A stretch of DNA of 64,000 bases from Pseudoxanthomonas sp. NC8 (GTDB taxonomy: Bacteria > Pseudomonadota > Gammaproteobacteria > Xanthomonadales > Xanthomonadaceae). The translations under genes and the position numbers were made by a program. The notes under the pieces are model-generated. The model was not told the DNA's origin. It worked only from the letters and a program-made list of their open reading frames with translations, and did no database searches. Location: contig CP060419.1 of the NCBI GenBank assembly GCA_025232375.1, positions 2,293,001 through 2,357,000 on the forward strand, in the 5' to 3' direction. Every line of letters begins with the position of its first letter. The first letter of the stretch is position 1. Positions 37,117-61,942 of the stretch are shown here, in pieces.

Positions 37117-37210
37117 GGAGAGGTGTCCGAGTGGTTGAAGGAGCACGCCTTGGAAAGTGTGTAAGCGTCTAAACCGCGCTTCGGGGGTTCGAATCCCCCT
37201 CTCTCCGCCA
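37117..37210 (+). tRNA. tRNA-Ser (GGA), with an extra T in the anticodon arm
   Basis: A 94-base class II tRNA with encoded CCA. Acceptor GGAGAGG pairs with CCTCTCC, the T arm GGGGGTTCGAATCCCCC is perfect and a long variable arm is present. The anticodon region reads CACGCCTTGGAAAGTGTG, whereas the family has CACGCCTGGAAAGTGTG giving a 7-base loop with anticodon GGA. The extra T makes an 8-base loop or bulge. This is the same CCTGG to CCTTGG change seen in protein genes, so I regard it as an error and the gene as functional. Confidence 0.93.
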
Positions 37211-41732: not shown

Positions 41733-41985
41733 GAAACAGGGGTCGGAGTGTGCGAAGAACGGGGTCAGGTTCACTTCCTAGAAGCATGACCCGCTGGCTC
41801 GCGGCTATCGGCCGACCCCGCTACCGGCCAGCGGTTCAACCCGCCCCGCTCCCCGTGCGGGGAGCGGCGTGGTCAGTGCTGGAGGCCACGCGGCCGAAGG
41901 TCCGCGGCGGCGCATCCAATCCACCGTCCTGCCTACAACTGCACCTGACCCCGTTTTCCTGCCTGCAACTGCACCTGACCCCGTT
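41733..41985. repeat. GGGGTCAG repeats, including a tandem inverted pair
   Basis: Direct copies at 41733-41753 and 41755-41779. Inverted copies at 41936-41961 and 41963-41985 form a 27-base tandem duplication (CAACTGCACCTGACCCCGTT twice). They flank the end of the DUF1254 gene. Confidence 0.65.
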
Positions 41986-41999
41986 CTCAGCCATCCGGA

Positions 42000-60824: not shown

Positions 60825-60935
60825 GGTGGCCCCGTCGGCCCCTCGCGACGCTAGATCGAAAATCCCGCCGGGGCCGGAAGGCAGCAACGGTATCGGTCGA
60901 TGCGGGCGCCGAGGCCAGCCGGCGGGGCCGCCACC
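60825..60935 (+). ncRNA. ffs: 4.5S signal recognition particle RNA
   Basis: RNA of about 111 bases that binds Ffh for co-translational protein targeting. The diagnostic apical region reads GGGCCGGAAGGCAGCAACGG (GGAA tetraloop and the AGCAA internal loop), and the two ends GGTGGCCCC and GGGGCCGCCACC form the long basal stem, followed by TTTT at 60936-60939. CCTATGG just before the 5' end may be an altered CCTGG. A TAGAAT box at 60707-60712 is 113 bases upstream of the mature end. The 3' half is repeated in tandem downstream. Confidence 0.88.
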
Positions 60936-61383
60936 TTTTCAGGGGCGCGAAAATCATCCCCTCTCCCTGCAGCAGGCCCGTGGCGACGGGCCGGACCGTC
61001 CTGCATCGGGTTCGCGCCGAGGGCGCGGCAGCAACGGTATCGGTCGATGCGGGCGCCGAGGCCAGCCGGCGGGGCCGCCACCTTTTCAGGGGCGCGAAAA
61101 TCATCCCCTCTCCCTGCAGCAGGCCCGTGGCGACGGGCCGGACCGTCCTGCATCGGGTTCGCGCCGAGGGCGCGGCAGCAACGGTATCGGTCGATGCGGG
61201 CGCCGAGGCCAGCCGGCGGGGCCGCCACCTTTTCAGGGGCGCGAAAATCGTCCCCTCTCCCTGCAGCAGGCCCGTGGCGACGGGCCGGACCGTCCTGCAT
61301 CGGGTTCGCGCCGAGGGGGCGCGGCAGCAACGGTATCGGTCGATGCGGGCGCCGAGGCCAGCCGGCGGGGCCGCCACCTTTTC
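60880..61383 (+). repeat. 147-bp tandem repeat carrying the 3' half of the SRP RNA gene
   Basis: A block of about 60 bases from GGCAGCAACGGTATCGG through the CCACCTTTTC terminator occurs four times, beginning at 60880 (inside ffs), 61027, 61174 and 61323. The first three are followed by an identical spacer of about 87 bases, giving periods of 147, 147 and 149 bases. The spacer contains a hairpin around GGCCCGT/ACGGGCC. The fourth copy diverges after the T-run. The differences between copies are one base (ATC to GTC near 61249) and two extra G near 61315. Confidence 0.85.
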
Positions 61384-61480
61384 GGGTGCACTGCAGAGCA
61401 GCGCCAGCCTGTTCGTAACGCGGGGCCGTGGCGACGGCCCGGGTGCATCTCGCGACGGGTGGACGCCGGGGGCGCGGCCG

Positions 61481-61942
61481 TTACTCCGCGGGCGCCACCG
61501 GCTCCGGATGCAGCCAGCCGGCGTCGCCGTCGGCGTAGCGCTCGTGCTTCCAGATCGGCACGCGCGCCTTGACCTCGTCGATCACGAAGCGGCAGGCGTC
61601 GAACGCGGCGCCGCGGTGGCCGGCGCTGACCCCGACCCATACCGCCAGATCGCCGATCGCAAGCTCGCCGGTGCGGTGCACGCAGTGCACGCCGGTGATG
61701 GCGAAGCGCACGGCGGCTTCCTCGACGATGCGCTGGCCCTCGGTCGCGGCCAGCGCGGCGTAGGCCTCGTAATGCAGGCCACGCACCGGGCGGCCGTCGT
61801 TGTGGTCGCGCACCCAGCCTTCGAAACTGGCGTAGGCACCGGCCCTGTCGTCGAGCAGGCGCGTGCGCAGCGGCGCGATGTCGAACGCCACTCCGGACAG
61901 TTCGAAGCGGGCCGGGACGATGCCCTGGTCGCGTGCGCCCAT
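61481..61942 (-). CDS. moaE: Molybdopterin synthase catalytic subunit
   Basis: Transfers sulfur from MoaD thiocarboxylate to precursor Z. Intact, 153 residues. GAYASFEGWVRDHNDGRPV, LHYEAYAALA, VHRTGELAIGDLAVWV and the active-site Lys in DEVKARVPIWKHE are seen. It begins one base after the moaD stop. Confidence 0.95.
   Translation of the reverse strand: MGARDQGIVPARFELSGVAFDIAPLRTRLLDDRAGAYASFEGWVRDHNDGRPVRGLHYEAYAALAATEGQRIVEEAAVRFAITGVHCVHRTGELAIGDLAVWVGVSAGHRGAAFDACRFVIDEVKARVPIWKHERYADGDAGWLHPEPVAPAE

Follow-up and report, generated by a model that had tools for sequence, protein, structure and literature searches.

Repeated half-copies of the SRP RNA gene in Pseudoxanthomonas sp. NC8 look like by-products of a small hairpin element

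The half-genes repeated behind ffs, the gene of the bacterial small SRP RNA, in Pseudoxanthomonas sp. NC8 look like by-products of a small hairpin element rather than parts of a novel RNA system. Each spacer that separates two ffs tails belongs to a small interspersed palindromic element, named E here, which recurs across the family, has a sharp right joint, neighbours duplicated host ends, and is present at some loci and absent from others. Since the right end of E often adjoins a copy of the host sequence that precedes it, the ffs fragments look like passengers, probably devoid of any function of their own. What appeared to be an oddity of one ffs locus thereby becomes a family-wide, testable pattern, in which the right end of a hairpin repeat, matched by our model in 18 genera, joins sharply onto the copied end of a gene.

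The window, i.e. the whole stretch of 64,000 nucleotides that was analysed, corresponds to positions 2293001-2357000 of the genome's single 3.54 Mb contig. It contains one ffs, detected by cmscan on the plus strand at 60832-60928 (RF00169, 55.8 bits, E 1.6e-9), the 3' tail of which extends to a T-run at 60940. The last 61 bases of the gene (60880-60940), spanning GGCAGCAACGG to the T-run, return on the same strand at 61027-61087, 61174-61234 and 61323-61383, each copy being identical to the first at 61 of 61 positions. The four copies of the 3' half of ffs mentioned in the preliminary description are thus borne out, as are their spacings (147, 147 and 149 bases), and Tandem Repeats Finder reports the same array at 60880-61383 (period 147, 3.4 copies, 99% matches, score 983). 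Spacers of 86, 86 and 88 bases separate the tails. The first two are identical; one and the same 87-base spacer had been described, which is accurate to within about one base, but the third differs slightly (85 of 88 aligned columns match the first two). The array is also slightly larger than was then described, as the last tail is itself followed, at 61384-61478, by a fourth spacer, related to the others but diverged. It resembles the first spacer in 59 of 95 aligned columns (score 20, versus at most 15.5 in 1000 shuffles) and ends two bases short of the stop codon (61481-61483) of moaE, which lies on the minus strand (frame 61484-61942, Pfam MoaE).

All four spacers carry E on the plus strand. 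The first copy (60953-61029) has its hairpin at 60975-60992 and its right end, GGCGCGGC, at 61022-61029, where its last GGC overlaps the second ffs tail. The second (61100-61176, hairpin 61122-61139) scores 54.2 bits with our model R2, as does the first, and the third (61247-61325, hairpin 61269-61286), which has two additional G near its right end, scores 47.7 bits. The last and diverged copy, E2 (61400-61478, hairpin 61423-61440), reaches 62.9 bits; it is the final member of the array, with no native tail behind it. In the window, R2 detects these four spacers at E < 1e-5 and nothing else beyond chance-like scores (E of at least 0.67), bearing in mind that two of the four, the first copy and E2, belong to the model's own 22 training sequences. 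The three near-identical units look like the product of recent growth in copy number.

The number of units in the window rests on one assembly, because the genome consists of one contig scored only 57% complete. A tRNA-Ser-like gene elsewhere in the window (37117-37210) received a four-base anticodon call and reads GCCTTGGAAAG where Pseudoxanthomonas sp. PXM01 has GCCTGGAAAG, i.e. it is one base longer; together with the low completeness, the additional base suggests single-base insertion errors. In such an error-rich assembly the copy number could itself be an artefact. We regard this as extremely improbable, given that six public records contain comparable arrays whose spacers are different and that the diverged E2 comes after the array in the window.

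These six records were found by searching public genome contigs for the joint GGCGCGGCAGCAACGGTATCG, and belong to Pseudoxanthomonas helianthi, [Pseudomonas] boreopolis, Pseudoxanthomonas sp. PXM01, P. suwonensis J47, P. suwonensis DSM 17175 and Xanthomonas massiliensis. Each contains ffs, a spacer with an E-type hairpin and at least one additional ffs tail, the spacers differing from those of the window. A match to the ffs tail was present downstream in 22 of the 113 ffs loci examined, a count that is not a prevalence because the loci were chosen partly for their high rank in an earlier search, and that includes five genomes counted twice (L169/L036, L171/L048, L167/L225, L168/L206 and L170/L226). 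Among the 113, G017 and G030 are also represented twice, L204 has no downstream sequence and L169 and L261 have little; the run left out L015 (no core), L026 and L027 (repeats of other loci) and the window's own locus. Three of the 22 loci (L221, L236 and L255) are weak cases or lack E, and in L255 (G268) the diverged tail copy downstream of ffs is part of a longer repeat in which no E hairpin was seen. One plasmid record, from Legionella, was returned by a search of plasmids with the ffs array, and it matches part of ffs alone. At another locus, L009 (G027), a perfect 51-base copy of the 5' half of ffs, not the 3' half, stands downstream of the gene after a GTGGCGCGGCA sequence.

Copied ffs tails do not start at a single place. 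By reading, many loci start at AGCAACGG, others at CAGCCGGC, TATCGATCG, GCCGCCACC, ATGCGGGCG, TCAGCCGGC or CGGAAGGC, which amounts to at least seven distinct start points within the gene. In the single array of L203, copied ends begin at three host points; these tail pieces share 94-98% identity with the gene, and the spacers are, by eye, unlike between units. The final member also varies, being a tail in the boreopolis, massiliensis and helianthi arrays and E in those of the window, G015 and L203. In several g16 genomes, ffs is followed by one decayed E but by no further tail, other g16 genomes have no E, and G001 (L034) has a cut-down hairpin plus a stretch of N.

The model of E spans about 77 positions and starts with a conserved hairpin, centred on CCGTnGCGACGG, to which about 39 bases and then the end GGCGCGG(C) are added. 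When 22 copies belonging to several genera are aligned, the palindrome core CCGT-GCGA-GG is invariant, and GGCGCG is near-invariant at the right end, at a near-fixed distance from the hairpin core. The hairpin as it stands in the window, GGSCCGTGGCGACGGSCC, occurs in 6 of the 17 genomes of the genus, its reversed control pattern in none. A first model, R1, built from 13 sequences, detected E in 10 of these 17 genomes at E ≤ 0.1 and, at E ≤ 0.001, in 11 of 395 genomes of the family, nine of them within the genus. The second model, R2, built from the 22 aligned copies, raised the latter figure to 80 of 395 genomes and 18 of 54 genera at the same threshold, with strict filters that miss weak matches; it also matches 16 of 30 genomes in a set picked partly for holding arrays. 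No title or abstract on E was found in the literature, in a search that left subscription journals largely uncovered and hence constitutes weak evidence of absence.

E recurs after ffs and after parE, and once after a tRNA-Lys gene. Among the places where GGSCCGTGGCGACGGSCC occurs in the genus are some at which this hairpin separates tandem repeats of the parE 3' end, and parE hosts E in several genera, with three E in the arrays of G355 and G336 and four in those of G379 and G090. For G090 (L298), the identity of the gene as parE was established by TIGR01055 (E 1.4e-95, over its last 203 residues), and the other parE hosts were named by their likeness to it. In G126 (L352), the host is a tRNA-Lys gene called by ARAGORN, with repeats that start at TTCGAATCC; two further host sites with copied ends are L301 and L305, and in G015 the hairpin also lies between REP halves that form arrays. 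On C5 of G015, a 35-base REP segment is present 13 times and stands on both sides of E at seven places; where it precedes the flank GGATGGCGG, E is absent in two cases, and in one the segment is the right-hand copy behind E. The surrounding region, L163 (C5 72900-86000), is a dense REP mosaic with and without E that should be useful for dating gains and losses.

Other contexts of E were also observed. In G282 (L336, L337, L341 and L345), E forms inverted pairs with outer ends like GCCGCGCCAGGCAG and CTGCCTGGCGCGGC; these pairs adjoin GTAGGAGCGC-type repeats, which resemble Xanthomonas REPs listed in PMC2817692. Within G012 (L150, L151 and L152), E belongs to a longer dispersed repeat in which a GTATTGCGG...CCGCAATAC inverted repeat lies past the right end. 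E-like copies precede pseudopilin-like genes at L338, L340, L347, L353 and L310, where GCGCGG(C) of E falls on the codons for RG; the gene at L338 is gspG (TIGR01710), and the others were assigned by eye.

The breadth of hosts bears directly on the question of an RNA function. Because E is also followed by copied ends of other hosts (parE, a tRNA gene and REP repeats), from varying start points, E is not specific to SRP RNA, and a role linked to SRP is unlikely, since the same kind of element adjoins the ends of coding genes and of a tRNA gene. The preliminary description was right that the downstream copies cannot form normal 4.5S RNA: RF00169 is found only at 60832-60928, a search of 60930-61500 against Rfam returned no match in these copies even at E ≤ 1, and no full SRP RNA fold (RF00169) is present in them. 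Its further proposals, that the copies pair with ffs, act as serial terminators or serve as decoys, find no support in the promoter and terminator scans, in Rfam, in folding or in the unrelated hosts. Between 60600 and 61600 there is no sigma70-like promoter, the only type covered by the scan, and the one terminator-like site lies within ffs, on the minus strand. Folding of the 147-base unit does not exceed that of its shuffles (z +1.37, versus -2.47 for ffs). That a functional array of ffs-derived RNAs pairs with SRP RNA or buffers it is, on sequence evidence, very improbable. The tails in the window are perfectly conserved and the association with ffs recurs across several genera, as such an array would have it; against it stand, besides the promoter, Rfam and folding results, tails reduced elsewhere to stubs of fewer than 20 bases, the parE and tRNA gene ends that follow the same kind of element, and the 91 of 113 ffs loci, in a selected set, that have no tail match. 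An array of SRP-derived RNAs or decoys was therefore rejected on the Rfam, folding and promoter scans.

The joint between E and the copied end was quantified over the loci by a regular expression (hairpin plus end), which returned 59 distinct first-in-locus copies of E; for each, the bases from the right end of E onward were compared with the 150 bases preceding the hairpin. These 59 are distinct sequences and not independent events, several being related by descent and many coming from G015. At a score of 24, 35 of the 59 have a copy of the upstream host sequence, versus one for the reverse-complemented flank and one for the shuffled flank. The corresponding numbers of 59 are 35, 3 and 2 at a score of 22, and 33, 0 and 0 at a score of 28. 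In these 35, direct copies of the host sequence flank E on both sides, over an estimated length of about 19 to 114 bases. In a smaller run on 37 first copies, 29 reached score 24, as did none of 37 for the reverse complement; random stretches of the same loci scored in 42 of 626 cases, a control inflated by the repeat-rich nature of these loci. Of the 35 matches, 31 start at an identical base of E, namely the G that closes GGCGCG, although the true joint may lie 1-3 bases further because this G is common to E and host. The other 24 first copies score below 24, and most have no host-end copy by eye; among the E copies without one are the inverted pairs of G282 and those preceding pseudopilin-like genes.

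Our preferred explanation, which we hold to be somewhat more probable than otherwise, is that E is a REP- or YPAL-like palindromic mini-element that inserts with a target duplication of variable length, after which the duplicates recombine. E would settle at the 3' end of a gene, and the sequence just before it, here the 3' half of ffs, would be duplicated, so that an intact host gene would stand to the left of E, and its end would appear a second time behind the right end GGCGCGG(C). The three near-identical units of the window would stem from later unequal recombination between duplicated tails, with decay of E copies alongside. The family-wide matches of R2, the 35 of 59 first copies with a copied host end, their common starting base in E and the unrelated hosts (ffs, parE, tRNA-Lys, REP repeats, L301 and L305) argue for insertion, as do the varying host start points, the differing spacers of L203, the parE and REP sites with and without E, and the window tail before the last spacer, identical at 61 of 61 positions although that spacer matches in just 59 of 95 columns. 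Points against it include the 24 of 59 first copies below score 24, the single degenerate E that follows ffs without a second tail in several g16 genomes, the decayed E-like copy some way behind parE in G015, and the closure of the window array by E2 rather than by a native tail; moreover, alleles devoid of E could arise by deletion between direct repeats.

The main rival is replication slippage, or microhomology-mediated template switching, at a GC-rich hairpin. The polymerase would stall at the end of E, the nascent GGCGCGG would re-anneal upstream at a GG or GGC, and tail and E would be copied again, so that E would be an old, immobile 3'-end repeat and a hotspot of duplication. The short GG or GGC common to the joints (by eye), the variable left points, the arrays that close with E (window, G015 ffs, L203, L307 and L351) and the units that copy part of E only (G012 parE and L203) would all follow from such events. 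Slippage fits less well with a match that begins at the identical base of E in 31 of 35 copies across hosts, with arrays that close with a tail and no E after it (boreopolis, massiliensis, helianthi and G009 parE), and with tails that agree while their spacers differ (L203 and the window). We thus consider slippage a serious but unlikely source of the first duplication, which we think was probably made by the insertion event itself. Amplification by slippage had been raised in the preliminary description; recent growth of the units is indeed likely, but slippage ranks below insertion with duplication.

The parE loci allow forms with and without E to be compared. In G006, the end of parE, GCTTCGCTGGAAGTGTGA, is directly followed by AGGGCCGGGATTCGGGATTC (AGGGCCGGGATTC...) with no E, and G015 is likewise without E directly after parE, a decayed E-like copy standing about 120 bases further on. 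In G009, the functional parE end GCCTCGTTAGAGGTCTAA precedes E, and GCTTCGCTGGAGGTCTGA then AGGGCTCGGGATCCGGGATCC come after the last E. The second contig of G009 probably continues the first, the array being broken in assembly. A flank resembling the E-less one of G006 stands after the last tail copy, past the E units, and the functional tail of G009 is more unlike the E-less form than the displaced tail is. A native-looking flank after the last copy is what would be seen if something had entered the gene ahead of its end.

The displaced, native-looking end in G009 would also suit scars of attachment sites, left by an integrase that targets the 3' ends of genes (tRNA, ffs and parE), the incoming element restoring the end, the native end being displaced and tandem integrations giving arrays. 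The repeats that begin at TTCGAATCC in the 3' end of tRNA-Lys (L352) agree with this scheme, for which e14 in icd is reportedly a parallel. Several findings make it quite improbable: within any one target gene, a site-specific integrative element would keep the joint at a single fixed core, and ffs alone has at least seven start points, unlike the target of a site-specific recombinase; in G358 (L215), the tail is of local origin, since both ffs tail copies there have the GATCAACG variant; and REP repeats are hosts too. A link to dif and XerCD was also dropped, E not being dif-like by eye; the passages of PMC4076744 that concern dif do not name parE.

If insertion is the origin, a mobilising enzyme was presumably involved. 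Duplications as long and variable as these (roughly 20 to 110 bases) are unusual for DNA transposases, and we know of no DNA transposon that inserts with one base-exact end and one free end. We nevertheless put forward, as a doubtful possibility, that E is a minimal integrating element of fewer than 100 bases, a candidate for enzyme-driven movement, which has repeatedly entered indispensable genes (ffs, parE and tRNA-Lys) at their 3' ends across the family, with one base-exact end and one free end, the gene being kept whole by duplication of its end. Y1 transposases (Y1_Tnp) are found in 15 of the 17 genomes of the genus, including ones where R1 finds no E, and are absent from G010, which has E; they are too widespread to discriminate. 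The flanks of Y1 genes examined in G000 and G015 (L112 and L110) hold repeats other than E, and neither the presence survey nor these two flanks linked a RAYT, as a candidate mobiliser, to E. The window itself has, at 41927-41986, two head-to-tail 30-base units ending in CACCTGACCCCGTT, and similar GGGGTCAGGTTCAC repeats occur near the Y1 genes of L112 and L110. Reverse transcription, which would explain 5'-truncated copies with a constant 3' end, is weakened by the presence of reverse transcriptases (RVT_1) in only 2 of the 17 genomes (G011 and G015) and in none of the contigs of G000, a diverged or lost enzyme being possible.

Should insertion hold, a tiny element can settle in essential genes harmlessly, and the partial copies of ffs, parE and a tRNA gene that could mislead annotation are explained. 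Should slippage hold, E offers a natural hotspot in which to study hairpin-driven tandem duplication. Under either reading, the E array may serve as a variable-number marker.

Several families of small bacterial repeats invite comparison. REP palindromes fall into the GTAG and CGTC superfamilies, the latter having an unpaired tag at one end of the hairpin and a stem of 8-9 bp, and REP clusters may be reiterated together with flanking DNA, according to PMC3733652. Like REP, BIME and REPIN sequences, E is a small GC-rich interspersed palindrome, often found after genes as singles, inverted pairs (G282) or clusters, and so belongs to the broad REP/BIME class. E differs in its second conserved part, GGCGCGG, about 39 bases off, in its low copy number, in a sharp right joint often followed by a host-end copy, and in that no RAYT was linked to it. 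By eye, the E alignments show no GTAG-type tetranucleotide at the foot of the hairpin, and no CGTC-type tag lies beside it, the consensus stem measuring 6-7 bp, although single copies may pair further. YPAL (RU-2) of Yersinia, as described in PMC2229807, measures 168 bp, is not A+T-rich, has internal inverted repeats, generates target duplications of 3-26 bp and targets sites at or near dyad symmetry. E is likewise not A+T-rich, with internal inverted repeats and, if the insertion reading holds, target duplications of variable size, but it is shorter (about 77 model positions versus 168 bp), and its copied stretches are longer and often gene ends. The MIRU-VNTR of mycobacteria are short intergenic units of variable tandem number that lie beside genes, and E units are also short, intergenic, tandem and variable in number, with other sequences and in another phylum. 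Integrative elements at the 3' ends of tRNA, tmRNA or protein genes, such as e14 in icd, resemble E in having the end restored on one side and a displaced copy on the other; E, in contrast, has no sizeable cargo, no fixed core and many starts in one gene. E thus fits the broad REP/YPAL class, and is set apart within it by the missing REP tags, by having another conserved end, and by the sharpness with which that end joins the copied end of a gene.
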